From a virus, in IMG/VR virus record IMGVR_UViG_3300024520_000208, positions 1 through 38,723 of that record: a stretch of 38,723 bases of DNA. The stretch is one strand, 5' to 3'. Position 1 is the first letter of the stretch; the number at the start of each line of letters is the position of its first letter. Under the pieces are notes generated by a model, which saw only the letters and a program-made list of their open reading frames with translations, was not told the DNA's origin and made no database searches. The position numbers were made by a program, and so were the translations under genes. This document shows, piece by piece, positions 1-27,430 of this stretch.

Positions 1-57
1 AGAGAGCGTGTCAAGCGACAGAGAGGGGGGGAGACAATCATGGGAGGTATGTACTGA
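1..57 (+). CDS. C-terminal end of an unidentified late gene (partial)
   Basis: A reading frame is open from the first base and ends at the TGA at 55-57, giving an 18-residue basic tail (RERVKRQRGG...GGMY). The stop shares its last base with the ATG of the next gene (TGATG). The same stop-start overlap recurs between real genes in this genome, so this is probably the end of a real upstream late gene. The ribosome-binding site of the next gene (GGGAGGT, 41-47) lies inside it. The product cannot be named from 18 residues; by position it should be a tail or internal virion gene. Confidence 0.5.
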   Translation, partial: RERVKRQRGGETIMGGMY

Positions 58-602
58 TGTGTATCCCAGTTCTAGCGGTATGGGGAGCTTCGATTTTGGG
101 AACCACAGGCACAGCCGCTGCTACTAGCTTTGCGGCTTATGCGGCCGGCACAGCCGCTGCGGCTTCTATAGCCAGCGGCGTAGTAGGCGCATACGGTTCG
201 TTACAGCAGGGTAAGTTCCAGAGTAAGATTGCAAAGAATAACGCGATTGTAGAGAAGCAAAAGCGTGATGATGCAATCGAGCGTGGCAAAACTGAAGAGC
301 AAAACTATCGGCGCCAAATTGCAGGTGTAAAGGGTGAACAACGAGCTGCGATGGCAGCGAACAACCTGAGTCTCGATAGCGACACACCTATGGGGATAAT
401 AGAAGACACCGCACAGTTCGGTGAAATGGATGCACTAACCATTCGTGCTAACGCTGCCAGGGAGGGTTGGGGGTACGACGTCTCGGCCTCGAACGCTTTG
501 GCTAGTTCAAAGATGCACAAGCAGGCTGGCAGATTAAATGCGGCAGGTACTGTACTGTCGACTGCCAGCAGCGTTGGCAGCATGTGGAAGCCGAAGCAGT
601 AG
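57..602 (+). CDS. internal virion protein (T7 gp14-like)
   Basis: The product is 181 residues. The first 50 or so are Ala/Gly-rich and hydrophobic (ASILGTTGTAAATSFAAYAAG...), and the rest is charged and helical (about 55-181). This layout, with position just before a gp15-like and a giant gp16-position gene, is typical of the small inner-core/ejection protein of podoviruses, which leaves the capsid on infection and helps form a DNA conduit across the envelope. The ATG at 57 overlaps the preceding TGA and has a strong GGGAGGT site about 9 bases upstream. I assign the class from context and composition; no catalytic motif is expected. Confidence 0.7.
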   Translation: MCIPVLAVWGASILGTTGTAAATSFAAYAAGTAAAASIASGVVGAYGSLQQGKFQSKIAKNNAIVEKQKRDDAIERGKTEEQNYRRQIAGVKGEQRAAMAANNLSLDSDTPMGIIEDTAQFGEMDALTIRANAAREGWGYDVSASNALASSKMHKQAGRLNAAGTVLSTASSVGSMWKPKQ

Positions 603-633: not shown

Positions 634-2463
634 ATGCCTACCGTACCAGTTATGAATGCTCCAAGAGTAAAAGCTACAGGCTATAGCGGTAACCTGTCGG
701 TAGACATACCTAGAGGTGCGTTCGGAGAAAACATTGCGGCTGGTCTGGAAGACGTCAGCGGAGAACTGGCTAAGACCGCTGACCGCTTGTTCACCGAGGA
801 TGGTGAGACACAAGCGAATGAGCGCATGTCGGCTGCTCGTCGTGAGGTGCTTGCACTTGGCACTGATGATGGTGGCTTTTACTCACTAGAGGGTGGCGCG
901 GCTGTAGATGCTTATCCAGGCTATTTGGACGAAGTCTCTAAGATCTATAAGAAGCACGGAGATGGGCTGCAAAATTCCGTTGGACAGAGGAAATACCAGA
1001 ACGACTCTGAGGCATACATGCTGCGCGAGGATGAAGAGGGTTCCAGCTTCGTTGCTAAAAATCGCAAAATTCACCAGCTAAATGTGCGCAAGGAAACGAT
1101 CGAGATCAACCAGGAGGAGATGGCCGCACATCCTTACGACAATGCTCCGATGATGGACAATATAGTTAGTTCTGTGACTGCCGTTGCAATTGCCAGCGGC
1201 CTGAACCCAGATGTGCCAGAAGAAGCGGAGATCATCAAAAAGATGGCTCAAGACGCGATCGACGTCGGACATGGCGCTGCTATCGACTCATTTCTAGAGC
1301 GCCAAGATCCACAAAACGCTTTACTCTATCTGGAGAAAGCGATTAAAAGCGGTGTAATTAGCGACAACTTTGCAGGAGAGAAGCGATCCGAAGTCGAGGG
1401 ATCTTTGAACTTGCGTGTCTCGATGGACTTTGTTGACCAGTTCGCCGGCATGGGGCTGACCAAGACCCAACTCAGCAAGAAGATCCGCGATGCTTACCAG
1501 GACGGCAGCCTCACAGCCGAACAGCGTGTAATGGCCGAACAGCGAGCTACCTCGTTGGTAACTAACGAGACGGCCAGCCGAACCAAGTACCAGGACTCAC
1601 TTGAGACGAAGTTTGCAAACTATCTGGAGGCCAATCCTGGCAGCACTCATCAGGATCTTCAGAGGGAGTTTGCATCGGAGTGGGCAACTTTGGATCCTCG
1701 TCGACGTGAGTTTTTCAAAGGCGGAACCCTGGATTGGACAGATACAGACGTCCAGACAGAACTTGTGGGTTATCTTGGAATGCCGGATATGAACAGTGAA
1801 GAGATCCGCGAAATAATGGATAAATACACCGACGAAGGTAAGTTAGGGTCGACATTTCGCCTATGGATGTTCGATCACATGCAAGCGGGGAAACAAGGTA
1901 CTTCGGCTGCTGAGAGTGTGGGTGGTACACCGAGGCAGCGATTTGATCTTACGATGGGGAATTTTCTCGAAACGAAACCACAAGCTAGTGCGCCGAAAGC
2001 ACTATCCCGCTATAAAAAGAAATACGCTGTTCTGCTTGGTTTGTATGAACAAAGGCAGAAGGAATGGCTAATAAACAATCCACGATTTAAAACAGTTCCA
2101 AATAATGATCTTGACGAGATGCTGCTTAATTTACAGTGGGGTTACACCAGGAAGCACAAATTAAGCTCGAATGCCTTCGCCCAGGCGACCTGGGGAGATT
2201 CGTTCGATAAACGAATTGATGTCACCAGCTACACCGGCGCCGAGCTTGAAGGCGCACAAAACGCACTTATCGAGCGAGGACTGTCCAGAGAAACGATCAC
2301 AACACGGGAGATCCTGGGCCAATTAAACCTTGAGTACACCTATACTCCTGAAGAGGTCGAGAAGGCGATACTAGAAATGCGGGATGGCAGGGTATCTCCT
2401 AACGATCTTACAGCCAGTAACATTGCCAATTGGATTGAAGACTACTCCGGCGAACAAGACTAA
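634..2463 (+). CDS. internal virion protein (T7 gp15-like)
   Basis: The product is 609 residues, beginning MPTVPVMNAPRVKATGYSG. I choose the ATG at 634 because AGGGGAAGAA lies just upstream; an in-frame ATG at 538 would overlap the previous gene by 65 bases. The protein is soluble, acidic and largely helical, with no membrane segment or catalytic motif. Podovirus internal virion proteins of 500-800 residues between the gp14-like and gp16-like genes look like this and are ejected as part of the trans-envelope channel. Its TAA shares its last base with the next ATG (TAATG), so translation is probably coupled to the giant gene. The assignment rests on gene order, length and general character. 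Confidence 0.65.
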   Translation: MPTVPVMNAPRVKATGYSGNLSVDIPRGAFGENIAAGLEDVSGELAKTADRLFTEDGETQANERMSAARREVLALGTDDGGFYSLEGGAAVDAYPGYLDEVSKIYKKHGDGLQNSVGQRKYQNDSEAYMLREDEEGSSFVAKNRKIHQLNVRKETIEINQEEMAAHPYDNAPMMDNIVSSVTAVAIASGLNPDVPEEAEIIKKMAQDAIDVGHGAAIDSFLERQDPQNALLYLEKAIKSGVISDNFAGEKRSEVEGSLNLRVSMDFVDQFAGMGLTKTQLSKKIRDAYQDGSLTAEQRVMAEQRATSLVTNETASRTKYQDSLETKFANYLEANPGSTHQDLQREFASEWATLDPRRREFFKGGTLDWTDTDVQTELVGYLGMPDMNSEEIREIMDKYTDEGKLGSTFRLWMFDHMQAGKQGTSAAESVGGTPRQRFDLTMGNFLETKPQASAPKALSRYKKKYAVLLGLYEQRQKEWLINNPRFKTVPNNDLDEMLLNLQWGYTRKHKLSSNAFAQATWGDSFDKRIDVTSYTGAELEGAQNALIERGLSRETITTREILGQLNLEYTYTPEEVEKAILEMRDGRVSPNDLTASNIANWIEDYSGEQD

Positions 2464-5400
2464 TGGCACTAGGAGAGACAAACGAAGAAAAACTGAACCG
2501 GCTCCGGTCATCAGGGCTGTTTCAGGAATATGAAAAGCCGGCTCCTACGCTCATGTCTGTGCCGGAGCCTTCGCAGCAGCAAAGAGACCTGCCGCAATTA
2601 CCTGGTGTTGAAGATCCAGCGCAATTACCTGGTGTTGAAGATCCAGAACTACAACTGAATAATAGTTTGCGCTTAGGAATTGGCAAGGATGCCGGCCAGG
2701 CTGCCGAGGCTGAACGCCTGGGTCGTGAGCATGGTGTTCCTGCTCCTGCTATTGAGCATAACCTTGATGAGGCCAGGGTTGAGTCCAGGATCAACCAGGT
2801 CAACGTAAAAAAGTTGATCAAGGAGGCGCCGACTACGGCTCAGTGGCTATCTAATCCTGACAACTCCGCACAGGCTCAAAATGATATTGAAAGGCTCTCG
2901 ATTCTGGAGAGGATCTTACGATCTCCTATTCCTGCTGGCGCTGTCAGTGGCTGGGATAAGCATAGTAAGGCTCTCCTTAGACAAAAAGAGATACTGGGGC
3001 CAGGCCTCACCGCTGCCGAAAAAGAAGAGTTCGATAGCCTGACTCTCAGTCAGCGGTTAGCCCAGCAAGAGCACGGTGATGATGTGTTCGACTTCTTAGA
3101 TCCTGGCAGCTATGGGTTCTTTATGGCCGACCAGGCGGGAATGATCGCTGGCAGAGCTTGGAACACTCTGGTTGATCGCGAGTTCCAGGCGATGGCGGGA
3201 GTGAGTGTTGCCGGAGGCCTCGCCACTGCGGCAGTTCCTGCACCTGGTGTGGCGCAGCTTGCGGGTGCGGGCCTGGCGAGCGCCGGCATCGCCACTGCGT
3301 TCCGAGCAGGGCTAGTTGAGCAGACTGCATATTTGCTGTTCGATGAGGCTTATAGCGACCTGGTCGACGAATATGGCTTCGACCGGGAAACGGCAACAAA
3401 GGGTGCGTTAATTTATACCACCATGATGACTCCTCAAGAGGTTTTCGGTCTTCGCATGCTCTACAAGGCTTTCACCGGCGGCGGCAAGGACATTTCGAGA
3501 GACTTCGCGATGCAGACTGTGCTCAAAGGTCTGAAGAAGAGAGGGGGCAAGGAGATTCTAAAAGATCGCTTGAAGGACATAGGAAAGGCCACAGCCTTCA
3601 ACACAATCGAGGAGGGAGTGCAGAAGGCGACTGTGATCGCATTGCGTGAATACTTCCAGGAAGAAGCTGGTGTAGCAGAGGACTACACCACTGAACAGTT
3701 CGAGGCTGACATCCTTGCCATAGGCCAGGAGATGGCAATGGCATTTAAGGGATCCAGCGGCCTTGCTGTGACAGGTGGCACAGTATCTGGTGTGAGGGAG
3801 GCCAGGCAGTTAGGGGACGCAACAAATATCGACCAGGCTCGCATAGCTGAGTTCTCGAAAGCCGTCGCAGAAAGCGAACTGCGCAAGACGAATCCTGCGG
3901 CGTTCAGTGAGCTGATGAAAGAGCTTGGCGCTGACTCTGGAACCGAGACTGTCTACCTGGATCCAGAGGCTCTCGAAGCGCTGCTCCAGAGCGACCTGGT
4001 CAAGCCAGAGATCATAAACGGAGAAGAGACCTACTTCCTTGAGCATGGCATCGGCAAGCTAATCGTGGATAAGTTTTCAGAGTCGGCTGATGGATCAATG
4101 ATTGAGATCCCGATCGAACTTTTTGCGAATGAAGTTGCCGGTCAGGCAGTGCAACCGATCTTGCGGCCATACATGAAGATGGACATCGACGCGATGACGC
4201 CGCATCAGGAACACCAATCTGGTGTCGAAGAGCAGATCGAGATGCTCAATGCGATTGACAAGGAAAAGCGCACTGCCGGCGCAGAAGTTTACGAAACCGT
4301 GTACAGGGATTTACTGGAGGCAGGGGTGCCAGAAGTTGAAGCCGACAAGGATGCTGTCTTGCATGAAGCAATCTTCCGCACAACTGCCGACAAGATCACT
4401 CGTTCCGGCCGCAAGGTTAGCGCGAAAGAACTGTACGACGAACAAGTTGGTCGTATCCGCCGAGAAGTGCGGCCACACTTGCGGAAGCAGGCGGAGTCGA
4501 TACAGAAGTTCGAAAACCTGGTTGAACGCATTCGTAAGGGCGACCTGATCCAGCCGGTCGAAGAAGGCCAGGAACTTACTCCTGAAGAGCAGCGGCAGAA
4601 GGAACAACTGGATCGTGTTTCGTCCATCCTGTCTGATGCTGGAATTGATCCAGAGATCATGAACAACGAAGAGATTCGTGAAGCTCTCGAAGGCATGCCG
4701 GAATCAGCCATTCAGCAGATTGTGGACGAGCGTCTTGATGAGGACAGTGCCGAGCTTGCCGAGCTTGTGTCGCAAATCAAAGCCGAAGCTCGTGACGCAT
4801 TCTACGCGCTGGACGTTGCTATCAACAACCAGGGCGAGATCGAGATTGAATATATTCGTGTTGAAGAGATGCGCCAGGGTCGTGGTCATGCAACCAGGGC
4901 GCTTAATGCTCTCCGTAAGCTAGGCGACGAGCAAGGACGAGATGTAGTCCTGGAGACAGCTAGGGACGACTTGATGGATCCTCGTGATGGTCTGATCGAG
5001 TTTTATTCCGCCAGGGGCTTTAATCAAGAGCAACTATCAATGCCTGGTGTGATGAGATACAACAATGCTCAGAAACTTGAGCGCGCCAGGGAGCAGGGGT
5101 TCGACACAAGCCGCATCTGGTATCACGGCCGCAGGTCTGCTCCGCAGGATGCCTCCTTCCTTGAGTTCGAAATGGATAAGGCACTTGATGGTGCTCACTT
5201 CTTCACTAAGTCTGAATCTGTTGCAAAGTTTTTCGGCGAGACAGACGGGACTGGTCAAAACCGACAGGCACAGGGCACGCACGCTTACTTCATCAATCCT
5301 GGCAACAGTATGGTTATCAGTAATGATGAATTAAGTGACATGCTGACAGATGAGCAAGTCGATGAGGGCATGCTGTCGCGAGACCTGATAGCCGGCATCA

Positions 5401-8400
5401 TCGAGCAGGCGAAGACCGATGGTTACGACTCCCTGACAATCACTGGGTTTAGTGATTTAGAGGAGGAGGCTGATGCAATCTTGCCGTTTAATCCAGAGCA
5501 GATCCGCCTTGTTGATGCGGTATTCGATGATCCTGGTTCAGCATTAATATATTCACAGGACGATCTGCTGAACCAGACAGTGCCGATGAAAGTTGCTGAA
5601 GATCAGCTTCGCGACAACTTTAGTCTGATGGTACACCAAGAGCCAACCAGCAAGATCCGAGTTGGCATCGACAAGGTTCATAGCCTGGCTGACGCGGCTC
5701 ATATTGCAGCCGCATTCAGAAAACATGCGCAGGAAGTTGCAATCGCAATCATTACTGATGATGAAGGCAACGTACTGAACATCGTGCGTCACTCGAAAGG
5801 AGATAAGTCTTCCGCCACGCTTGTCCCGGTCGTCCTGGCTGGCGCTGCATTGTCGACAGATGGCGCCACTAAGATGTGGGTGGCACACAATCATCCAACA
5901 GGGAGAACTAAGCCTTCGTCTGCTGATCAGCGAATAACCGTAAAGATTGCAGAGGTCATGGATGGGACGAGTATCCAGTTGGCCGGCCATGTCGTTGTTG
6001 GTGAAGGCGCAAAAGCATCCAGAATTGATAACGATGGCTCGACTCACATAGACGTTGTAAACATCACTCCGGCTCCTCGCAATAAACAGGTATGGCTTAC
6101 CGAGCGGGTTATTCGAACCAGGTCTAAGTTACCTGCAATTGATTTACAACGTGACGGCTCACTAACCCCACAAGCATTAGCGAACTTTTCTCGCGAACAC
6201 CTCAGTGGCGGCACTACTCTTTTGCTTATGGACATCGGCTTTAAGCCTGTTGGAACCATGAAACTTAGTTTGGCTGAGATGAGTGCGATGCGAGAAAATA
6301 ACATGCCAGATAGGCTGTTACGCGCGTTCGATCAAACTAATGCAGAAAATTCTGTTCTGCTGACGGCAGATATTGCTAACAGCGATGGTCGGATAGGGCA
6401 ACCACCTGCGTCTATGCAAGAGGCAGTTGCAAACTTCGCCAAGTTTATGAATCGCCAGGCTATTAATGGCGGCATGAGCTTCATTGACTGGGTTCGTGTG
6501 TCAGACAGATCTTACGAATCCAGCAAGATGAATCAAGACGGCATGGCTTCTGCACAAGGCAACTTCTATCAGACAGATATAGATGAAATTAAATTCTGGC
6601 GCGATCAGGTTGCTAAAGTATTTAGTGGTCAGCGAATGGATAAAAAACGTCCACTTCAGCTTGGCATGCCTAGCGAACCATTAAAAGACGTCGGAGTCCC
6701 AAATGTTCAGATCATTATGGGGTCAGAGCTTCCGAGGGTCAATAAACATTCAATTGGTGAAATGACCTGGATGGGACTGCTTCATCAAATAAAAGATCCG
6801 GTCGCTGTGTTCCGTGAGCAACACGGAGACGAAACTCGTGTAACCATACTTACGCAGTTGACTGGGATTGAACCGAATACAGGTTCGGAAAAAAGGCCGC
6901 TTGTTGTTGTGCTGGAGATGAACACACCTCACCAATTACTTGGGCAAAGAGTGAATATGCTTGTCAGCTTTCATCATCGTGAATGGAAAACTATTAAGAA
7001 ATGGGCTGATGACGGACTGCTTTTGGATATGAACAAGGGTAAGGCTGATCGTATGGCCGATGCTGCTCCAATTGCTGATTTGTTCACTAATGCTGCTTTA
7101 GATGACGTTGTGGTTCGCAACAACATCGACGAAAAACTTTTGCAGTTTGATCCAGAAGGTTGGGGGCAGAATCAGCCTGTAGAAACAAAGCCACTTGTTA
7201 AGGTAGATTATTCTGTTCCGCTACGAAGCCCAATCGGATTTATCAGTCGTGCCGAGCAAGTTGTGATCGACATGCGGTTGCCTGAGTGGAAGAAAGAGGG
7301 AGGTAGTGCGAAAGGATCTGTGATCCTGGAAAAACTAAAAAAAGAACAAGTATCAAATGAAGAACTCAAATGGAGCGGCCTACAGGAAATGCTTGGGGAG
7401 ATAGACTTCAAGTTGACTCGTTTGCAGGTTCAGAAATACATTCGTGCGCAAAATATTCGTATGACAGAGCATCTCATGACTCCAGATGGTCTGCGTACTA
7501 GCGTGGCTTATCCCCAGAAATGGGCAGAGCTGAACGCAGCGTATATGGAAGAATTAAGGACGTATCAAGATGTAACTTTGCCGGAGTATAAGGCTAGTTA
7601 CGATAAGTGGGTGAAGGATAAGGCTGAGTGGGAGAAAGCAAGAGAAAATCAATTTTCCTGGACGCAGTACCTTGTGTCACGAAACGACAAAATTGCAAAT
7701 CCTGCCCCAGCAGAACCGGCAGAACCGGTAAACCCAGGAACCGTTAGCGACCTCGCTTCTCTGGATCAGTATGGCTTCGACGCAGGCAGGCTACCGCAGG
7801 CGCAGTTAGCATCGGATGATGGCAATGTGGTCATAAACTACGATCTAGACAATCATCCCGCTGGTGACGTCATCGCAGAACTTCCTATGGTCGTTAATTT
7901 AGAGGCTTACGATATTGTCGCCGCTGATGTCGAAAATGGTTACGAACTTCACGATCAGCAACTTGAGTTGTTAAATGAATTGGCAATGGAATCTTACGAT
8001 CAGGGTGAAACCTATGCTGGCCCTATTGACGCTGACGAGCGGGTTCAGTATCTCCGTGATGAGTATATAGATGAAGTAATACATGAGGCGGAACATTATT
8101 TAGATGAAGATGATTATCGAAATTTTGTAATACGCGCAGAAGTATGGGGGGAAGAATACGATGCTGATGATGTGGCCCAAAAAATGTGGGACTGGATTGA
8201 TGCTAACGGTGGTGATGGCGAGTCTATTTTTCGATCGGTAATGCGAGCACGAGTACAGGAAGAAATAGAAGAAACTAATAGTGAAAGCTACTGGGACGAA
8301 CCACTAGAGTTTGCTACTCACGAGTCACTTAAACGTTTGGCGGACGATACCGGCGAGTTAATAGACAATTATTATACTAAAAACCCGGACTCAGATACAT

Positions 8401-11400
8401 GGAAAATCTACGTCAACGGTGTTGAAATTTATGAAACTCAAATGGACATGGCTGACGCAATGGACAGGCTGGTCAAAGGAGCCGCAGAGGCAGGCTTGAT
8501 CAACCTTGATCTAAGGGAGGATGACCCAGCATTAGGCAGAAGACGACCCAGTTCTCTAAGTCGTGTTCGATCAGCCTCGGCACAAAGGCTGATAGATGAA
8601 GCAGCAGGTCTCCCTGTATCACCAACAGCACCAGCACCACCAATCCCGCCGGAAGATTCTATTGAACCTACTACACGGACAAAATGGGAGAACTCATCTT
8701 ACAGACTTAAGCCTCTTAATATGAATCCGATAAATTATACCGAGAGGTTGCTCCAGTTTCCTGAACTCAGTAAGTTTAAAAACAATAAAAGCGAGACACA
8801 CTTTCCAGGACAAAATAATGTCGTTGCGTTTATGCGTTCAGATGAACGAAGTATGTCTACCGGTTCAGCTCAAGAAAAACTTGATCATAGCGTGCAAGTG
8901 CAGAATGCTTCCAGCGACTTGATTTTCAGAGTAAGGCACATAGAGGATGACGTTAAATTTGAGCACAGAGTTTTGAATGAGTCTATGGTTAATAGTGATT
9001 CTGATCAGCGTGCGTTTATTATGAGGCTTTGGCAACCTACTTCTTATGACATTGTAGATGAGGGTTTGTACTGGGACATATCAACTCGAATCGACAGCGA
9101 TGGCGAGCGTTCAGCTAATTTATATGCATATTACAAAGTCGATGGTGATATGACGCGCGACTTATTATTTACTTCGTATGTGAGAGTGGATACTGCTCTA
9201 TCTGATCTCCAACTTGCTCGTTTTAATCTCTCTGCTGACGATAGCATTGAAGAAGACAACCCAGCGTATTTTAAAGATGCGATTGTCGCCACTGTACTTA
9301 AAGCGTTCGGCAAGGATCTTTCTGAACAAAGACTAATTTCAGATTCCTTATTGGGAGGTGAAACAAGTAACCAGTGGAGATTTGAGTTACCAGAAGACTT
9401 TGATATTCAAACAGACTCACTTGACGAGTCAGTAATTTTTCGATCCAAAATTACTCGCGATATTTCATCGAAAGTCCGTGCACGCACATTTTACCTGGAT
9501 GAGCTTCAATCTGACTGGCACAGAGCTGGTCTTAATTATGGATACAAGATAGGACAAACCATAGACGAAGATGCGCTTAGGCTGGAAGCTGTTGAAAAAA
9601 AGGCGGCAGTGATTGAGATGCTGGAAGAAATGGACGATGTCAAGTATGAAACATTAATTCAGATTTATCGCGATGCCGGCCTGACTCAGGAAATTGAGAG
9701 GGCAGTTGTTATCGAGCGCACGGTAGAGGAACTCATAACAGTTGAGCGCCCTGATGCTATCCAGAAGGTATTAATAAAAACAATCAAAATAATAAATCCA
9801 GAAGCTCTCAGGATTATCGGAGAAGTCAGTAAGATTAGAAGTGATCTGTCAGTTGACTCATCTAAGAGCGTTCCAGACGTGCCGGGTAAGCAAGGAAAGT
9901 GGGTCAAAATTGCACTGCGTCGTGCGCTAATCTTGGCGGCAGAGGGTGACTTTGACGGGTTCGCCTTTCCTAACAGTGGTACGCACATCCGTAGAACGAA
10001 TCCCAGCCTTCTCAAGATGTTTAAAGTGCTGTACGACAATCAGATGACAGCAGCCATCAAGGAATTAACTGGCGAAAAGCCTGTACTTATTAGTATTGAT
10101 ACCGAAGAAATAGTTGATAATCCAATCAACATCGAACAATACGAGAAAAAATGGAATAAGCGACTTGACGAAATTCGCGCCCTCCCTCTAGAGACCCTAC
10201 TTCATTTCGAAGACATTAACGCGACGATACAAGCAGTTAGTGTTTCACAAGGGCAGGTAAGATATAAGGCAGTTCGGACGACAGACAAAGGTATGCCTGG
10301 CGATCCTGAGATTATTTACGACGGCCCAAATACAGTTCAGCTGTTGAATGCATTCGGTATGAAACCACCGGGAGATATGGAGAGTGTGGCAGCTTACTAT
10401 TGGGTCAAGCTGACGCCAGAGCTTAAGAAGGAGATCCTGGATAACGGTACGAATTTGCTCCAGGACGACGACACCGTACAGGAAGGTCAGCGGCCGCGCG
10501 GATACTTTGAGCCGGCAACCAGGCGCATAACATTAACCGAGCGTGCGAACGCCACTACATTTTTGCACGAATCCGGCCATTTGTTCCTGGAGATGTATCG
10601 CGATCTCGCGCAAGAAAGCGAAGAGATTGCCGCCGACTTGCAGACTGTTTACTCCTGGGCTGGCGCCGAAGGTTCCTGGAAAGACATGACCATCGAGCAA
10701 CGCAGACAAGTTCACGAGAAGTTTGCCAGTGGATTCGAATCATGGCTTATGGAAGGCAAGGCTCCGACGGCAGAGTTACAGCCTATCTTCAGTCAGTTTA
10801 AGGCCTGGTTTCTTGATGTCTATAAGAGCCTTACCGAGGTATTCCGTCGCAATCATTTTGCCGGAACGGAACTCAGCGACGAAATGCGCGAAGTGTTTCG
10901 CCGCTTGGTTGCTACTGATGAAGAACTGAAGCGAGCAACATCTGACCAGGGCTTAATTGCGCTTCCGATCGAGCAAATGGGATTGAAGCCAGGTGATGCT
11001 GAGGCCTACTTGAAGGCTGTCGAGGACGCCAAGCTGGAGAGTGATCAGCAACTAACAGAGAAGGTTATGCGCGACATCCGCCGGCAACGTAAAGCCTGGT
11101 GGAAGCTGGAACTGAAGAAGACTGCTTCCGTCATTGAGGAAGAGCTTAATGATAGCAAGGAAAATGTTGCCAGGGACTTCATGTCGGGCAAGCGCATGGT
11201 TGAGGGCATAGAGCAATTCAAGCTGGACACTGACGCTGTTGCCAGGCTGTACGGAGTAGATGTAGCCAGCGCCTTGTCTCGGATGCGCGTACTTAAGAAG
11301 GGCGCGATGCACCCTGATGCCGTTGCTACAAAGCTAGGCTTTGCCACTGGCGAGGAACTTGTCCTGGGCCTTCAGAGCAGCACTAGCAAGAAGGAGCGCG

Positions 11401-14288
11401 CAAATATCGCTGTTAGCCAGGCTCAAGAAAAGATGGATGAGAAGTACGGTGACCTGATGTCGGCTGGCTCTTTGTACGAGGAAGCGAAAATAGTCGTACA
11501 TAACGACATGCAGGGCAAGCGCCTGCTGCTAGAACTGCGATTGCTTAATCAAAAAATAGGCAGCAAGGCTGCAACAAGGAGTGTTCCCCAGGTCACGCTG
11601 GCGCTGTACAAGGAAGCAGCGAGACGTGCCGTGGAGAATATGTCCATCAAGGAGATCCAGCCTCATAAGTATCTTCGGGCCGAGCGTCGTTGGGCACGAG
11701 AGGCTACTAAACTGGCTGCCCAGGGCAAGTATCAGGAAGCACTTGAGGCAAAGCATCGACAACTGCGCCAGTTCTACATGTATCAGCAAGGACATAGAAT
11801 TAAAGAGCGCGGCGAGAAGCATCATCGCCGTCTTCAGCAGATGAAGCTAGGTAAGTATAACGCGAAGCGTGTAGATCCTGAATACATTCAGCAACTGAAA
11901 GTTTTGCTGTCAGTTTACGACCTGCGCAAACGCCCGACTAATCGAGACACCCAGGGCCGGATTGCAAGTGTGCAGAAGTTTCTGGCTGCCCAGGAAGAGT
12001 CGAACCCTGGCCTGATTGCGACCGCATACATTGACAACATCCAGGACTGGCGCAACCTGACCATCCTAGATCTGCAAAGCCTGCGCAATGCCGCTGAGAA
12101 CATGCTGAAAATTGGCAAGGAAAAAAGCGAGGAAGGCTACAAGGATCTGACAATGCAAGCAATCCTGGCAAAGAACGCTATCGAGGCGAGCAGTCAAATT
12201 CGTGCGAGGCCGCTGGGCCAGGATGATGAGACTTCGCTGGAGAAGGGGCGCTCTATTACACAGCGGTTTAGTGAAGACCAGGTGATGCTGTACACCAACA
12301 TCCGCAAATTTGATAGTTACGAGTTTGGTGGAGTCTGGTACAGAAATATCCTGGAGCCTATCAGTCGTGGCACAGAGACCCGCACCAGGATGAATATGGA
12401 AGCATCGGAGAGTCTGAATGACATTCTGAAGCCTTTTCGAGGAAGCAAGCTGAAGCGTTCCTGGCTCAAAAACCGACAAGCAGAGAAGCAAGCAGATACG
12501 GTTGGAGAGTTTCAGCACCTGGACGAGTCGATGGTTAAGCGCACCCTGAATAACGGTGGCTCCTGGACTCTGTCTGCCGGCCAGCGTGTGATGCTTGCAG
12601 TGTATTGGGGTTCGCCTGAGTCGCGCAAAGCGATCGTCGACTCAGGTTACCAGGGCCAGGAAGTCACGGAACTAGATGTCCAGGTGATGCTCGATCTGCT
12701 TACTGACGAACAAGTAGAATTAGTGAAGAAGATCTGGAGCTTCAACGAACAATACTGGAGCGAACTCGCCAGGATCAACAAGGAACTCACTGGCCTGGCG
12801 CCGTTAAAAGTTGATCACATGCCGTTCCGAGCCGGCAATCATGAGCTTGAGGGTGGATACCAGCGCATCTATTACCACTGGACGCCAAAGGACGGTCAGA
12901 AGCTCGACATGCACGATGAAGCATCGAATGCAATGAACGTGAAAAATGGTGTCACGCAGACGAAGACGGGGGCATCTATACAGCGCAAAGGATCCGGCGG
13001 CAGACAGATTCGCCTGGAGACCGACAACATCATGCGCGCGACCGATGAGATCATTAACTTCATCGCCTATGCTGAGATCAGCCGCGACGTTGGGCGCTTC
13101 CTGAATCATCCGATGGTTGCGAAGTCGATCATTGATGTGTACGGCAAGGAGAAGTATCAGTCTTTCTTTGATTCAGTCGACGGTATATTCGCCGGCAATG
13201 TTGAAGGTGGCGCTCCGATCAACACAATGATGCGGATGGTTCGAACTAATTTGTCGATAGCCTATTTGACTTTTTCTATCAGAAACATGATTCAGCAGCC
13301 GCTGGCGATAACGAACTCGTTAGGACGCAATGGTGAGCTTGCTACCCTGGGCGCAATGTCAACTCTGGCGATGCGACCAATCGAGACGATTAAGTGGATC
13401 CATTCGAAGTCGTATTTCATGCAGGAGCGCAATAAGCTGGTCAACCGTGAGGTTGCAGAGCAGTTAGCAGTCCTGGAGAACTCGGCTGGCAAAGGCTTTA
13501 TCAAGCAGCGCATGTTCGTCTTGCAGGTTGTGGGTGATGCGGTCGCGGTATATCCGGCCTGGTTGGCTGCTTATCGTCGTGGATTGATTGAGGTCGCCGA
13601 GTTTGGCATGACGGAAGCAGAGATCTCCGATAAGGCTGCCAAGTTTGCAGACCTGGAGGCTGAAGCGATGATCGGATCTGGGCGCAAGCAGGGATTGGCG
13701 CCTATATTCCAGGGGTCTGGAAACATCGCCAGGACGGTCGGCATCGAGGCCTCAAAGCAATTTACATTCATGGGCACGTTCTTTGGCGTCAACTACAATT
13801 TGTACGGAGACGCCTGGTCGCGCATGAGGAAGGGTAAGATCAGTAAAGCAAAATACACTCGTGAGATGATGTGGTACTTGGTCATTCCTGCGATATGGGC
13901 AAAGTTACTGACTGAGCAACTGCCGGATCCTGATGATGATGAGGGATGGACTAAGTGGATGGTTGCTGGAGTGGCGGAGTTCGGAATGTCGGCGTCGATG
14001 TTTTGGCGCAACATAGCATCAGCACAGAAAGGGTTTGAGCCGAACATACCGGCGTTTTCTGCTTTCACCGGACTCGTCAGGCTCGGCGGCGAAGCCGCTG
14101 AACTTCTTAATGAGGAAGAGGAGTTAGGTATGGACGATATGGCTTCGGTCATCAGGGCTATGCAACCACTACTTCCGATGCCTGCTTCGGGCCAGGTTGC
14201 CAGGTCGCTGGAACAGCTTGAGTCTGTTGAGCGGGGCAGTGAAGACGCAAGCCTTTACAATGCTCTGGTGAAAGGTAAGAAAAGATAA
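2463..14288 (+). CDS. giant polyvalent / DNA-ejection protein (3941 aa)
   Basis: This single frame fills 30% of the window. Regions in order: a QLPGVEDP tandem repeat (45-62); a hydrophobic Ala/Gly stretch (about 240-285); a GNAT-like acetyltransferase segment (about 780-850, RQGRGHA near 802, FYSARGF near 846); an ADP-ribosyltransferase-like segment (about 885-1020, starting WYHGRR); a RadC/JAB-type metal site (H1142, H1144, D1155 in HNHPTGRTKPSSAD); a MuF_C-like domain (about 1395-1510, KHS... DPVAVF); a phage segment typical of large polyvalent proteins (about 1589-1670); ELQSDWH (2347 on) and a WVKIALRRA...DG segment (about 2480-2508); a zincin site (H2702-E-S-G-H2706, E2710); a long helical region; and hydrophobic stretches near 3594-3625 and 3800-3820. 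It sits where T7 encodes gp16, so I infer a virion-borne protein ejected into the host. Domain names follow the polyvalent-protein families of phages; activities are untested. Residues about 1170-2640 are encoded by AT-richer DNA than the rest. Confidence 0.8.
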   Translation: MALGETNEEKLNRLRSSGLFQEYEKPAPTLMSVPEPSQQQRDLPQLPGVEDPAQLPGVEDPELQLNNSLRLGIGKDAGQAAEAERLGREHGVPAPAIEHNLDEARVESRINQVNVKKLIKEAPTTAQWLSNPDNSAQAQNDIERLSILERILRSPIPAGAVSGWDKHSKALLRQKEILGPGLTAAEKEEFDSLTLSQRLAQQEHGDDVFDFLDPGSYGFFMADQAGMIAGRAWNTLVDREFQAMAGVSVAGGLATAAVPAPGVAQLAGAGLASAGIATAFRAGLVEQTAYLLFDEAYSDLVDEYGFDRETATKGALIYTTMMTPQEVFGLRMLYKAFTGGGKDISRDFAMQTVLKGLKKRGGKEILKDRLKDIGKATAFNTIEEGVQKATVIALREYFQEEAGVAEDYTTEQFEADILAIGQEMAMAFKGSSGLAVTGGTVSGVREARQLGDATNIDQARIAEFSKAVAESELRKTNPAAFSELMKELGADSGTETVYLDPEALEALLQSDLVKPEIINGEETYFLEHGIGKLIVDKFSESADGSMIEIPIELFANEVAGQAVQPILRPYMKMDIDAMTPHQEHQSGVEEQIEMLNAIDKEKRTAGAEVYETVYRDLLEAGVPEVEADKDAVLHEAIFRTTADKITRSGRKVSAKELYDEQVGRIRREVRPHLRKQAESIQKFENLVERIRKGDLIQPVEEGQELTPEEQRQKEQLDRVSSILSDAGIDPEIMNNEEIREALEGMPESAIQQIVDERLDEDSAELAELVSQIKAEARDAFYALDVAINNQGEIEIEYIRVEEMRQGRGHATRALNALRKLGDEQGRDVVLETARDDLMDPRDGLIEFYSARGFNQEQLSMPGVMRYNNAQKLERAREQGFDTSRIWYHGRRSAPQDASFLEFEMDKALDGAHFFTKSESVAKFFGETDGTGQNRQAQGTHAYFINPGNSMVISNDELSDMLTDEQVDEGMLSRDLIAGIIEQAKTDGYDSLTITGFSDLEEEADAILPFNPEQIRLVDAVFDDPGSALIYSQDDLLNQTVPMKVAEDQLRDNFSLMVHQEPTSKIRVGIDKVHSLADAAHIAAAFRKHAQEVAIAIITDDEGNVLNIVRHSKGDKSSATLVPVVLAGAALSTDGATKMWVAHNHPTGRTKPSSADQRITVKIAEVMDGTSIQLAGHVVVGEGAKASRIDNDGSTHIDVVNITPAPRNKQVWLTERVIRTRSKLPAIDLQRDGSLTPQALANFSREHLSGGTTLLLMDIGFKPVGTMKLSLAEMSAMRENNMPDRLLRAFDQTNAENSVLLTADIANSDGRIGQPPASMQEAVANFAKFMNRQAINGGMSFIDWVRVSDRSYESSKMNQDGMASAQGNFYQTDIDEIKFWRDQVAKVFSGQRMDKKRPLQLGMPSEPLKDVGVPNVQIIMGSELPRVNKHSIGEMTWMGLLHQIKDPVAVFREQHGDETRVTILTQLTGIEPNTGSEKRPLVVVLEMNTPHQLLGQRVNMLVSFHHREWKTIKKWADDGLLLDMNKGKADRMADAAPIADLFTNAALDDVVVRNNIDEKLLQFDPEGWGQNQPVETKPLVKVDYSVPLRSPIGFISRAEQVVIDMRLPEWKKEGGSAKGSVILEKLKKEQVSNEELKWSGLQEMLGEIDFKLTRLQVQKYIRAQNIRMTEHLMTPDGLRTSVAYPQKWAELNAAYMEELRTYQDVTLPEYKASYDKWVKDKAEWEKARENQFSWTQYLVSRNDKIANPAPAEPAEPVNPGTVSDLASLDQYGFDAGRLPQAQLASDDGNVVINYDLDNHPAGDVIAELPMVVNLEAYDIVAADVENGYELHDQQLELLNELAMESYDQGETYAGPIDADERVQYLRDEYIDEVIHEAEHYLDEDDYRNFVIRAEVWGEEYDADDVAQKMWDWIDANGGDGESIFRSVMRARVQEEIEETNSESYWDEPLEFATHESLKRLADDTGELIDNYYTKNPDSDTWKIYVNGVEIYETQMDMADAMDRLVKGAAEAGLINLDLREDDPALGRRRPSSLSRVRSASAQRLIDEAAGLPVSPTAPAPPIPPEDSIEPTTRTKWENSSYRLKPLNMNPINYTERLLQFPELSKFKNNKSETHFPGQNNVVAFMRSDERSMSTGSAQEKLDHSVQVQNASSDLIFRVRHIEDDVKFEHRVLNESMVNSDSDQRAFIMRLWQPTSYDIVDEGLYWDISTRIDSDGERSANLYAYYKVDGDMTRDLLFTSYVRVDTALSDLQLARFNLSADDSIEEDNPAYFKDAIVATVLKAFGKDLSEQRLISDSLLGGETSNQWRFELPEDFDIQTDSLDESVIFRSKITRDISSKVRARTFYLDELQSDWHRAGLNYGYKIGQTIDEDALRLEAVEKKAAVIEMLEEMDDVKYETLIQIYRDAGLTQEIERAVVIERTVEELITVERPDAIQKVLIKTIKIINPEALRIIGEVSKIRSDLSVDSSKSVPDVPGKQGKWVKIALRRALILAAEGDFDGFAFPNSGTHIRRTNPSLLKMFKVLYDNQMTAAIKELTGEKPVLISIDTEEIVDNPINIEQYEKKWNKRLDEIRALPLETLLHFEDINATIQAVSVSQGQVRYKAVRTTDKGMPGDPEIIYDGPNTVQLLNAFGMKPPGDMESVAAYYWVKLTPELKKEILDNGTNLLQDDDTVQEGQRPRGYFEPATRRITLTERANATTFLHESGHLFLEMYRDLAQESEEIAADLQTVYSWAGAEGSWKDMTIEQRRQVHEKFASGFESWLMEGKAPTAELQPIFSQFKAWFLDVYKSLTEVFRRNHFAGTELSDEMREVFRRLVATDEELKRATSDQGLIALPIEQMGLKPGDAEAYLKAVEDAKLESDQQLTEKVMRDIRRQRKAWWKLELKKTASVIEEELNDSKENVARDFMSGKRMVEGIEQFKLDTDAVARLYGVDVASALSRMRVLKKGAMHPDAVATKLGFATGEELVLGLQSSTSKKERANIAVSQAQEKMDEKYGDLMSAGSLYEEAKIVVHNDMQGKRLLLELRLLNQKIGSKAATRSVPQVTLALYKEAARRAVENMSIKEIQPHKYLRAERRWAREATKLAAQGKYQEALEAKHRQLRQFYMYQQGHRIKERGEKHHRRLQQMKLGKYNAKRVDPEYIQQLKVLLSVYDLRKRPTNRDTQGRIASVQKFLAAQEESNPGLIATAYIDNIQDWRNLTILDLQSLRNAAENMLKIGKEKSEEGYKDLTMQAILAKNAIEASSQIRARPLGQDDETSLEKGRSITQRFSEDQVMLYTNIRKFDSYEFGGVWYRNILEPISRGTETRTRMNMEASESLNDILKPFRGSKLKRSWLKNRQAEKQADTVGEFQHLDESMVKRTLNNGGSWTLSAGQRVMLAVYWGSPESRKAIVDSGYQGQEVTELDVQVMLDLLTDEQVELVKKIWSFNEQYWSELARINKELTGLAPLKVDHMPFRAGNHELEGGYQRIYYHWTPKDGQKLDMHDEASNAMNVKNGVTQTKTGASIQRKGSGGRQIRLETDNIMRATDEIINFIAYAEISRDVGRFLNHPMVAKSIIDVYGKEKYQSFFDSVDGIFAGNVEGGAPINTMMRMVRTNLSIAYLTFSIRNMIQQPLAITNSLGRNGELATLGAMSTLAMRPIETIKWIHSKSYFMQERNKLVNREVAEQLAVLENSAGKGFIKQRMFVLQVVGDAVAVYPAWLAAYRRGLIEVAEFGMTEAEISDKAAKFADLEAEAMIGSGRKQGLAPIFQGSGNIARTVGIEASKQFTFMGTFFGVNYNLYGDAWSRMRKGKISKAKYTREMMWYLVIPAIWAKLLTEQLPDPDDDEGWTKWMVAGVAEFGMSASMFWRNIASAQKGFEPNIPAFSAFTGLVRLGGEAAELLNEEEELGMDDMASVIRAMQPLLPMPASGQVARSLEQLESVERGSEDASLYNALVKGKKR
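2594..2646 (+). repeat. tandem 26-bp repeat, period 27, in the giant gene
   Basis: Two identical 26-base copies (2594-2619 and 2621-2646) are separated by one base and encode the peptide QLPGVEDP twice. The unit keeps the frame (27 = 9 codons), so it looks like a recent slippage or unequal-crossover duplication in the disordered N-terminal linker of the giant protein. Confidence 0.95.
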
Positions 14289-24558: not shown

Positions 24559-24789
24559 TTATATTCCCGCTCGAACGAGCAGGCGTTCAATGAGTTTGTC
24601 GCGGAACTTTTCATCGTGCTTCGCGAGATTGTTTAGAGCGCTGCCGGTGCCAGTTATGGCTTCATCAAGCACTTCGTTGGTCAGGACGCTAGTGATCTCT
24701 GTCTCGTTGCCAGCAACGATCAGAACTGCTTCGCCCTGGTGCTGGTCGAGTAGAGTGTTTATGATTTTCTTCGCTTGTGTATTACTCAT
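24559..24789 (-). CDS. small acidic early protein
   Basis: The product is 76 residues (MSNTQAKKIINTLLDQHQGE...). The ATG at 24789 has the GAGGAGGC box nine bases upstream and lies inside the last codons of the RecT gene, indicating coupling. It contains an alternating beta segment (AVLIVAGNETEITSVL) and a helical C-terminus (KFRDKLIERLLVRAGI). It lies between the annealase and ssb, so a recombination accessory role is possible. It was not recognised. Confidence 0.6.
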   Translation of the reverse strand: MSNTQAKKIINTLLDQHQGEAVLIVAGNETEITSVLTNEVLDEAITGTGSALNNLAKHDEKFRDKLIERLLVRAGI

Positions 24790-25585
24790 TGCTTTGTGCC
24801 TCCTCGGCTGTTGGTAATTCAGTTGCCTCTCCATCTAAGGCTCCGATCATTCGGTCGGTCTGTGTTTCGGATTGATTCGGTTCTGCTATGTAACGAATCC
24901 CGTTTGGCTGAGAGTCATGGTCGGCGACCTCCTCCATAGTCATTTCTCCACCGAGCGCATCAGGGAATGCCATTCGCAGTGCTGCTGCTTCAGCACACTT
25001 CGTCAGCATCTGTCGAGGTGCTTTCTTCCATCGTGCGTTAGGAAACAGTGACTTCTGGCCGTTTTTCTTGCCAGGTAGATACTGGTAGGTCTCACTGACA
25101 ACTTCACTGAAGTACGTCACGACGGTGTATTCACCACGTTGTTTTGCGACCGGGTTCCAGCGATACACCTTGACCTCACACCACTCAGGCACGGTAATGT
25201 GCTTGTATTCGATGTTATCTCCATAATGCGGTCTGGCCTGGCCCAGGTATTCGTTCGTGCGCTGTGCCGTTGTCCGGTACTCATAGATGCCTGGCATGAT
25301 CACGTCGCGCCATGTCGTAGCTCCAGTGATGGCATCCTTCACTTTCATCGGTACGATGTGGCACGGCTTCTTCATCGGATCCAGTTGCCTGGCCTGACAG
25401 TAGTCGATGACCATCATCACCGACATAGGATCAGCGCCTGGATACAGACTCGTTCGCATTGTGTTGAATTGTGCCGGCGAGACTTCACGCTTCTCGATCA
25501 TTGAGAGCAGTGACTTGCCTTCGTCTTCTTCAGGCTTTGTGACCACCGGAACATCTGCTGCGTACTCTTTTCTTATCTCAGTCAT
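24782..25585 (-). CDS. recT: RecT/Bet-type single-strand annealing protein
   Basis: The product is 267 residues. The RecT-superfamily signature is seen at about 45-85 (YPGADPMSVMMVIDYCQARQ followed by LDPMKKPCHIVPM), then WRDVIMPGIYEYR and, near 195-215, KAPRQMLTKCAEAAALRMAF, a typical conserved block near the end of the domain. Proteins of this family anneal complementary single strands and work with a partner 5'-3' exonuclease, here encoded directly upstream with an ATGA overlap. The acidic C-terminus (about 225-267) is a common interaction tail. Confidence 0.9.
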   Translation of the reverse strand: MTEIRKEYAADVPVVTKPEEDEGKSLLSMIEKREVSPAQFNTMRTSLYPGADPMSVMMVIDYCQARQLDPMKKPCHIVPMKVKDAITGATTWRDVIMPGIYEYRTTAQRTNEYLGQARPHYGDNIEYKHITVPEWCEVKVYRWNPVAKQRGEYTVVTYFSEVVSETYQYLPGKKNGQKSLFPNARWKKAPRQMLTKCAEAAALRMAFPDALGGEMTMEEVADHDSQPNGIRYIAEPNQSETQTDRMIGALDGEATELPTAEEAQSNE

Positions 25586-26493
25586 TTGACTACGAACCTC
25601 CTGGTTGTTGTTGTCTTTTGGAACTCAGACAGTCGATCGCCGAGTTCCTTTTCTACTGCCGTCTTGTTCAGGTTTTTGATCGCGCTGCCTGCCCAGGTGA
25701 TCATGGGCTTGCCATGCTCTGGATCCAGCAGCACATCAGTCGTTTTCATGAACTTCTTGATGTCTATTTCCAGCTCTTCCTTCTGTGACATTAGGCCTTT
25801 CATCGTTGCGCGTACTTCGCGCAGTTCCTCGACCTGGTTGGCGATGTCTATGCTCGCGATGCAAGCAGACGGATACAGCTTGTCTACGTCGCCAGACGTG
25901 ATTGGTTCGGGCGGATTGCGATGCTCGACTCGCTGCCAGAATAGCGCCAGTTTTTCTTCGAGTATCTTGTTGGCCTTTGCGCTGCTTTCAATGGTGTACG
26001 AGCGGAACTCATTGCCGCCGATCAGAACGCCCAGGTGCCAGCGATCCCACCCTGTCAGTGACAGGTAGCCTAGACACTGCGTCAGGTAGTACATGGGAAT
26101 GTTGTCGGTCTCTTCTGCGCCGAACTGCTTGCCCATGAACTTGTCGGCAGTCTTCGCTTCCATGCCGGCCTTCTCGCCGGTGACCTTGCGGTCGATGTGG
26201 CCGCGAAAGAACGGCAGTTCAGCGTGTTGGAAGTCGCGCCGATCGCGCCGCACGTCGATGCCGGTGCGCCTGGCGAACTCGTCGCAGACTACATCTTCCA
26301 GGACGTTGCCGAAGTGTACACGTTCATTGTTTGACAGGTCGGGCCGCTCTTTATCGCCGACCTTCTCCAGATATAGATCGAGTGGTGTCATGTATGGGTG
26401 TAGCCCGACTGCTGCTGCTACTTCAGATGCGCCGACGTATGTGTGTCGATCGCTGAAGTCGATTCCCGATGTTGCTTGTTTTACTGTTGTCAT
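25582..26493 (-). CDS. YqaJ-type phage exonuclease
   Basis: The product is 303 residues. The PD-(D/E)xK core is visible: GASEVAAAVG (21-30), E66 in FGNVLE, D101 in GHIDRKV, then E112 and K114 in MEAKTAD, followed by YYLTQCLGYLSLTG (Q and Y of motif III). The C-terminal part (about 215-303) is a coiled, charged region as in other YqaJ proteins. It degrades dsDNA from the 5' end to make the substrate for the RecT-like partner. A GAGAGAAC sequence precedes the ATG. This is a typical lambda Exo/Bet-like pair. Confidence 0.9.
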   Translation of the reverse strand: MTTVKQATSGIDFSDRHTYVGASEVAAAVGLHPYMTPLDLYLEKVGDKERPDLSNNERVHFGNVLEDVVCDEFARRTGIDVRRDRRDFQHAELPFFRGHIDRKVTGEKAGMEAKTADKFMGKQFGAEETDNIPMYYLTQCLGYLSLTGWDRWHLGVLIGGNEFRSYTIESSAKANKILEEKLALFWQRVEHRNPPEPITSGDVDKLYPSACIASIDIANQVEELREVRATMKGLMSQKEELEIDIKKFMKTTDVLLDPEHGKPMITWAGSAIKNLNKTAVEKELGDRLSEFQKTTTTRRFVVK

Positions 26494-26507
26494 GTTTGTT
26501 CTCTCAG

Positions 26508-26921
26508 TTACCAGTTAAGGACGTGTTGGTCATCCAGGTGTTCTTGTATCGTGCCTGTGAAGTAATCGAGCAGGCCAACACGACGGCGACTGATTACTTC
26601 ATGATCGTGCATAGATTGTGTGTCGATTATTTGATCCAGGTCGAGCAGGAACAGGTCTTGCTCGTTGTGCGCTTCGACGAGCCATCCTTCGGCATCTTCG
26701 GCTGCTGCGAGCCATGCGAGCACAAGATAGCCCTGGTCTTCGACAGGCAGCTCCTCGTACATGAGGCCTTTATATTCTCCCAAGACATCGAAGTATTTGT
26801 TCCGCGCTATATCAAATTTTTCGGCCGTCTTGTTCCTGTCGACCAGGTTGCGCTCGTCTTCATAGTCAGGATCGTGTGTTGCGGGAACAATGCCTGCTAG
26901 TTTTTGCCAGTTATGCTTCAT
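26508..26921 (-). CDS. unknown acidic early protein, first leftward gene
   Basis: The product is 137 residues starting MKHNWQKLAGIV at 26921, with the TTGAGGAGGCA box eight bases upstream. It is strongly acidic and helical (YEELPVEDQGYLVLAWLAAA...). The first gene behind the leftward promoter of a phage is often a host-takeover or inhibitor protein, and acidic DNA-mimic proteins occur there, but there is no direct evidence of either. No family was recognised. Confidence 0.6.
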   Translation of the reverse strand: MKHNWQKLAGIVPATHDPDYEDERNLVDRNKTAEKFDIARNKYFDVLGEYKGLMYEELPVEDQGYLVLAWLAAAEDAEGWLVEAHNEQDLFLLDLDQIIDTQSMHDHEVISRRRVGLLDYFTGTIQEHLDDQHVLNW

Positions 26922-26986
26922 TTTATGTGCCTCCTCAAGCACTGCTTTCACGAGATTGCTGGTCTTATTCGCCAGATCAGAATCGA

Positions 26987-27015
26987 ATAGTAGTTGATTA
27001 GGTACATTTGCGCAA
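26987..27015 (-). promoter_or_regulatory. predicted leftward early promoter
   Basis: On the minus strand TTGCGC (27015-27010) and TACTAT (26992-26987) are 17 bases apart. The boxes match three and four of six positions, so this is a moderate prediction, supported by its place upstream of the first leftward gene. The spacer contains GTACCTAA (TTAGGTAC on the plus strand, 26998-27005), shared with the promoter at 23150. Confidence 0.4.
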
Positions 27016-27024
27016 GTTTTTTTC

Positions 27025-27037
27025 CATGTTTTACATG
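27025..27037. promoter_or_regulatory. operator candidate between divergent promoters
   Basis: CATGT-TTT-ACATG is a perfect 5-3-5 inverted repeat, with seven of eight bases paired if the flanking TTC/AAA are included. It lies midway between the predicted leftward and rightward promoters and 59 bases before the Cro-like gene. It is a natural binding site for that protein, by analogy with other phage control regions. Confidence 0.5.
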
Positions 27038-27053
27038 AAACAGCGTAAAAACA

Positions 27054-27082
27054 TTGCGCGTCCTGGCCTGGCGTGCCATAAT
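27054..27082 (+). promoter_or_regulatory. predicted rightward promoter of the Cro-like gene
   Basis: TTGCGC (27054-27059) and CATAAT (27077-27082) are separated by 17 bases; the -10 matches five of six. The ATG of the Cro-like gene starts only 14 bases after the -10 box, so the transcript would be almost leaderless, which agrees with the absence of a good ribosome-binding site. Confidence 0.45.
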
Positions 27083-27095
27083 TCGTTTTGTGAAT

Positions 27096-27299
27096 ATGAG
27101 AAAAAACAATTCAAGGCTCATCCAGGCAGTCGAGAAGGCTGGTTCTGTTCGGGCGCTGGCCCTGTCCATCGAGGAGTCGCCACGCACCATACAATATCAG
27201 GTGCGGCGCGGATGGCTGAGTCCAGCGGTGGCTAAGAAAGTCGGAAAACTTTATCTTTGGCCGCGCGTCTATATCGTCGACCTGGCTTCTGCCGTATAG
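27096..27299 (+). CDS. Cro-like HTH regulator
   Basis: The product is 67 residues. The helix-turn-helix of the Cro/YdaS type is clear: LIQAVEKAGSVRALALSIEE (about 7-26), then SPRTIQYQVRRGWLSPAVAKKV (27-48). It is the only recognisable regulator at the divergence point; no CI-like partner is seen on either strand. ATG 27096 is chosen as the first ATG giving the standard N-terminus. It would bind the palindromes around 27000 and control early transcription in both directions. Confidence 0.75.
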   Translation: MRKNNSRLIQAVEKAGSVRALALSIEESPRTIQYQVRRGWLSPAVAKKVGKLYLWPRVYIVDLASAV

Positions 27300-27305
27300 T
27301 ATTAT
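27277..27305 (+). promoter_or_regulatory. possible promoter for the replication gene
   Basis: TCGACC (27277-27282) and TATTAT (27300-27305), 17 bases apart, match four and five of the six consensus positions. It overlaps the end of the Cro-like gene and would give a leader of about 115 bases before the initiator gene. Confidence 0.35.
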
Positions 27306-27430
27306 CCCCGTGTGCTGGTCTCTGCCTCCTCAGATCCAGAACACACCGCTGGTTGGTCTTCAGGTCTATCCTGGGGACTAGCCAGCATTTTAATGAATTT
27401 TAATGAATGACCTGCCGAGGGGGCGCCACA
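27300..27430 (+). other. leader region of the replication gene
   Basis: No gene is seen here. It contains the direct repeat TTTTAATGAA (twice near 27390-27410) and, on the minus strand, an orphan GAGGAGGC box (27331-27324) with no start codon behind it. The inverted elements GTGTG (near 27310) and CACAC (near 27345) may pair. Confidence 0.4.

Follow-up and report, generated by a model that had tools for sequence, protein, structure and literature searches.

The analysed window comprises the entire virus record IMGVR_UViG_3300024520_000208 (38,723 bases). It begins within the gene for an internal virion protein and breaks off in the major capsid gene, so that it most likely represents an incomplete genome of a BPP-1-like podovirus. 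Another, independent IMG/VR contig (L001) shares a 14-kb stretch identical to the window, and the final 4.1 kb of the giant open reading frame (ORF) described here are 100% identical in it. Positions 24782-28342 of the window encode a RecT-like annealing protein, a RecE-like exonuclease and a replication initiation protein; PADLOC gave no match on the window. The features considered in this study are listed below, with window coordinates, strand and, where applicable, residues of the giant protein.

57..602, +: internal virion protein, homologue of BPP-1 Bbp12 (PHROG 418, E 1e-35; blastp)
634..2463, +: ejection-cluster neighbour, Bbp11-type over its first ~240 aa (HMM, E 1.7e-16)
2463..14288, +: 3941-aa polyvalent protein, homologue of BPP-1 Bbp10
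2640..4580, +: N-module, residues 60-706, LPD22 plus about 550 aa, first part of the conserved scaffold
2679..2927, +: LPD22, residues 73-155 (Pfam PF18834, E 5.5e-14)
4395..10448, +: cargo bay, residues 645-2662 (2018 aa)
4818..5033, +: GNAT acetyltransferase-like domain, residues 786-857, motif QGRGHA (relatives' profile and Pfam)
5115..5513, +: ART-PolyVal ADP-ribosyltransferase-like domain, residues 885-1017 (relatives' profile and Pfam)
5625..6032, +: RadC-like JAB domain, residues 1078-1186 by Pfam (E 4e-17, above cut-off)
6084..6500, +: probable degenerate second JAB-like domain, residues 1208-1346 (AlphaFold and hhalign)
6738..7049, +: MuF_C domain (PBECR predicted RNase), residues 1426-1529 (Pfam E 5.8e-11, above cut-off)
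7140..9392, +: stretch without a family, residues 1560-2310, partly strongly acidic
9393..10427, +: 'QSDWH' domain, residues 2311-2655, unnamed in Pfam
10440..11162, +: zincin metallopeptidase-like domain, residues 2660-2900, HESGH at 2702-2706 (conservation)
11163..14237, +: C-terminal, mostly alpha-helical scaffold, residues 2901-3925

The giant ORF opens with an ATG that overlaps the stop codon of the upstream gene (TAATG) and continues for 3941 stop-free codons; its length and single frame are as the first-pass annotation of this DNA had stated. The upstream neighbour had been listed as 538-2463; this start is probably too early, because the HMM match begins at an internal Met at position 634. 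The product of 634..2463 matches the Bbp11-type family of lysozyme proteins over family positions 1-243 only, and no peptidoglycan hydrolase or lysozyme part was recognised in it. The same gene slot is seen in Bordetella phage BPP-1, Caulobacter phage SR18, Cobetia phage Carin1, DC33, ctQRb9 and Ab9, in which tail genes, an internal virion protein and a Bbp11-type (lysozyme-type) protein precede the giant gene, and a tail fibre, spike or other large gene lies 3' of it. The annotated gene order of HU1 agrees with the BPP-1 slot as far as the HU1 fragment reaches. As for the taxonomy of these phages, Limnohabitans phage DC33 (L007, PQ492659.1) is listed under Inoviridae, yet its genes resemble those of BPP-1-like tailed phages, so that its taxonomy line looks wrong. 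The giant gene had also been assigned to the position of T7 gp16. As a statement about an ejection-protein cluster this assignment stands, but the demonstrable homologue is BPP-1 Bbp10; the likeness to T7 gp16 is an analogy of slot only, and neither gp16 homology nor a transglycosylase domain is present among the Pfam and PHROG matches of the giant protein.

Membership of the Bbp10 family follows from three features of the giant protein, namely an N-module beginning with LPD22, a zincin joined to a helical C-module, and the same slot. In tblastn searches, the C-terminal third found 43 phage records, whereas the N-terminal two thirds found Carin1 only. At the N-terminal side, the N-module profile matches residues 60-644 (74.6 bits) and the blastp alignment to Carin1 spans residues 297-706; LPD22 is found in all seven annotated relatives scanned (7/7), weakly in Ab9 (E 0.09). 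At the C-terminal side, the match to PHROG 9880 has an E-value of 1e-194, with its best stretch at residues 2673-3929. The zincin proposed in the first-pass annotation is borne out by conservation, as relatives show little or no variation in the HExxH motif and in the H/E residues downstream of it. Bbp10 and its homologues (PHROG 9880) thus resemble the window protein in their LPD22 start, zincin, helical C-terminus and gene slot. The two differ in cargo: Bbp10 has 2052 aa with a single recognised PBECR1 in a short bay, whereas the window protein has 3941 aa and several effector-like domains.

To describe the family, we assembled 89 complete ORFs of at least 1800 aa, the window included, from 117 further loci and annotated phages; the loci were chosen by zincin similarity, which biases the set toward C-modules of this type. 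For the N-module profile we used the 15 members in which the zincin is preceded by the shortest stretch. Across the set, both the N-module (~600 aa from LPD22 onward) and the C-module (the zincin and ~1000 mostly helical residues) have near-constant lengths. In the 82 ORFs with a usable N-module end, the coefficient of variation of length is 0.07 for the N-module and 0.04 for the C-module but 0.88 for the bay between them. The bay ranges from 0 to 2018 aa and accounts for almost all length variation (r 0.99 between bay and total length in the 82 ORFs; 0.985 in the 81 without the window). The window bay is the longest of the set, followed by one of 1434 aa, and minimal relatives such as L025 (8 aa) have next to no bay.

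Bay contents change while the flanks stay. L071 and L088 are 92% identical in the N-module and 95% in the C-module, and one of them carries PBECR3 and ART, the other PBECR3 only. Between L075 and L044, with scaffolds 98/94% identical, an LPD3 has been gained; L045 and L056 (91/95%) likewise differ by LPD3, and L021 and L029 (81/87%) have bays without any match to each other. The scaffold is conserved and the insertion site fixed, and whole domains are gained or lost between near-identical scaffolds. This fixed, refillable bay is the main insight of our analysis. Pfam applied to 64 bays found ART (29), Acetyltransf_7 (9), LPD3 (8), MuF_C (5) and PBECR3 (5) and, more rarely, PBECR1 (3), PBECR5 (2), RadC (2) and fewer of others. 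In one relative, L082, residues 638-1351 of the ORF hold three ART-PolyVal matches.

Scans with the window's own bay returned no close relatives, and we therefore compared its cargo through the domains of relatives. Four of the five domains named in the first-pass annotation (GNAT, ART, RadC/JAB and MuF_C) are confirmed by profiles. For GNAT, Pfam on the whole protein gives residues 788-853 at E 0.02, short of the cut-off on its own, and a profile made from the GNATs of 11 relatives, with the window excluded, recovers residues 786-857 with an i-E of 6e-9. Similarly, the Pfam match of ART-PolyVal (886-1017, E 3e-4) does not reach the cut-off, and the relatives-only profile, again with the window excluded, recovers residues 885-1017 with an i-E of 2.5e-6. 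The ART-PolyVal assignment rests on the family profile together with the YHG motif, which begins at residue 887, and the strand motifs; Phe stands at the usual position of Tyr. In MuF_C, the alignment places H1429 and S1502 at candidate catalytic positions, consistent with the His of the N-terminal helix and the later Ser/Thr expected of a PBECR domain.

The remainder of the bay is less familiar. Family and relative searches found neither a family nor a relative for residues 1560-2310, within which residues 1751-2000 have a net charge of -51. An HEAEH at residue 1874 has no counterpart in the relatives compared and was taken as chance. The 'QSDWH' domain that follows, with the motif (D/E)(E/Q)xQSDW, occurs in several giant phage proteins and is common to L069 (two copies), L070, L080 and L053; identity of residues 2311-2655 with LPD23 is unsupported by Pfam. 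This domain, LPD22 and the probable degenerate second JAB had been missed at first pass. The hydrophobic stretches reported then are not of transmembrane grade, the maximal Kyte-Doolittle value of any 19-residue span being below 1.6. As to the suggestion that the order of domains might be new, none of the relatives examined has exactly this order, although adjacent domains recur as pairs, GNAT-ART in L062 and L037 and ART-RadC in L177 and L152.

RadC was the sole bay part that we folded, mixed whole-bay alignments having misplaced the ART and MuF_C rows. The AlphaFold model of the 341-aa RadC module (pLDDT 82, pTM 0.81) matched RadC 2qlc in Foldseek (E 3e-7, TMt 0.78), which confirms the fold proposed for this segment. 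Residues E1091, H1142, H1144, S1152 and D1155, which correspond to the metal and catalytic residues of RadC, are invariant in 24/24 sequences. The second half of the model shows the same order of strands and helices as RadC, without the HxH, and it follows RadC in relatives too. An hhalign comparison of the two halves with 24 sequences placed them in register, weakly (P 0.024), and one with four sequences only gave no match. Residues 1208-1346 are thus likely, though not proven, to be a degenerate JAB copy lacking the metal site, as judged from the model. The RadC-module profile found 53 viral loci, in 52 of which the module lies within an ORF of at least 1202 aa; as these ORFs reach 4676 aa, the 3941 aa of the window protein, earlier considered as potentially novel, are no record. 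The same ORF holds a window-type zincin in 28 RadC loci and, in 21, the N-module as well. RadC is a frequent component of giant proteins of viruses, although Iyer et al. (2017, PMC5512222) listed it for conjugative elements only. Other giant polyvalent-type proteins with the RadC module, the viral ORFs L140, L176, L155 and L181 (4052-4676 aa), show no match to the window's zincin. The module also occurs in genome-assembly loci (L110, from Oryzomonas japonica, L113 and L118, the latter two from MAGs), presumably prophage or phage-derived.

The AlphaFold model of the C-module (residues 2662-3855) is mostly helical (pLDDT 80, pTM 0.58) and has no Foldseek match below E 0.2 in the PDB, whereas 74 viral models match it at E 0.001 or better; among the names listed for these matches are several polyvalent, ART, N-acetyltransferase or nuclease proteins.

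As a single chain that unites domains of disparate activities and is encoded near late virion genes, the giant protein is a phage polyvalent protein in an ejection-protein cluster, as the first-pass annotation had suggested. It is a large and unusually cargo-rich addition to this known class and no new type of system. The phage-type polyvalent proteins described by Iyer et al. (PMC5512222) likewise combine zincin, ART, GNAT and PBECR/MuF_C domains near virion genes; the window protein differs from them in having RadC and a two-sided conserved scaffold with a single insertion site. The orthologous polyvalent proteins of Helicobacter prophage jhp1044, likened here by their description in PMC5512222, show comparably extensive domain mosaicism with domains other than those of the window protein.

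We consider it probable (about 0.75) that, in a BPP-1-like podovirus, this phage-type polyvalent protein serves as the giant ejection protein and is built as a chassis whose cargo bay can be refilled. In favour of this reading we count the shared gene slot, the constant flank lengths, the enzyme contents of the bays, their change between near-identical scaffolds, the similarity of the C-module to 43 phage records and its recurring viral fold; against it we count that the zincin could act in assembly or on host proteins instead, and the bias of a set chosen by zincin similarity. T4 Alt (PMC5512222) and N4 vRNAP (PMC12633501) are phage proteins that are packaged and injected, and P1 DdrB is discussed as a precedent in PMC5512222. 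Judging by gene position and such precedents, the giant protein is probably packed in the virus particle. It would lie in the capsid beside two smaller ejection proteins and would be threaded through the tail with the DNA, partly unfolded, the N-module and the helical C-module serving in packaging and in association with a transient channel. The zincin may then cut the chain and free the cargo, which would act in the host cytoplasm during the first minutes: ART and GNAT might modify host proteins, the MuF_C/PBECR domain might cut RNA, and the RadC/JAB domain might cleave a nucleic-acid or peptide conjugate. For the role in disarming host defence at entry that the first-pass annotation had suggested, the PADLOC scan gave no support. 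We found no virion proteomics in the literature for any member of the Bbp10 family; the accessible part of the BPP-1 head study identified two major head bands only.

The chain might instead be mainly a structural protein of the ejection channel or motor, its cargo being domesticated or inactive and aiding only packaging or refolding. The concentration of conservation in the scaffold rather than in the cargo, the almost bay-less minimal relatives such as L025, and the missing metal site of the second JAB would all fit such a role. However, the E/HxH/S/D set of RadC is intact in every sequence aligned, the GNAT, ART and MuF_C motifs are retained, and enzyme families recur in bays family-wide, so that we regard this role as distinctly unlikely. 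Even less probable, in our opinion, is a late cytoplasmic protein that is not injected and acts in the producing cell in assembly, in lysis or as an exclusion or toxin-like factor. Some relatives are indeed annotated as lysin or lysis protein (PMC9239159), but their gene sits in an operon of tail and ejection proteins, and Pfam found no peptidoglycan hydrolase domain in the giant protein.

Within the ejection-chassis reading, a further comparison concerns N4 vRNAP (gp50), an ejected protein of giant size that contains a zincin and ends in a large helical region (PMC12633501). The window protein resembles it in these respects, its own ejection being our inference, and carries effector domains where gp50 carries an RNA polymerase. 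It is tempting to ask whether the zincin and the ~1000-aa helical C-module are homologous to the C1-C2 end of N4 vRNAP, so that one chassis would have received RNA polymerase as cargo. The C-terminal domain of the N4 protein is made up of C1, which is of zincin type, and then C2, which is helical, ~1100 aa long and of unknown fold (PMC12633501). Total lengths are similar, and each gene adjoins two other ejection proteins. However, the hhalign score was non-significant (29.2, when the highest-scoring of 25 block-shuffled controls reached 35.9), and the C-module model has no PDB match in a library in which the presence of the N4 coordinates was not established. Homology seems doubtful, and since the sequence comparison falls short of significance, the likeness is architectural only. 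Equally speculative is a general podoviral injection chassis in which a fixed N-module and a zincin-helical C-module surround one site for interchangeable effectors of the first minutes; N4 vRNAP would be the version loaded with RNA polymerase.

At least four effector-like enzyme domains thus sit within the conserved, probable injection framework of the window protein, in a slot that other enzymes fill in related phages. RadC with its conserved, probably inactive JAB partner adds a phage side to the list that assigned RadC to conjugative elements, and provides a defined module for asking what RadC does. If the chassis model is right, bay contents across phages would form a readable list of each phage's first-minute effectors, and the conserved flanks would mark where to look for them in any new genome.
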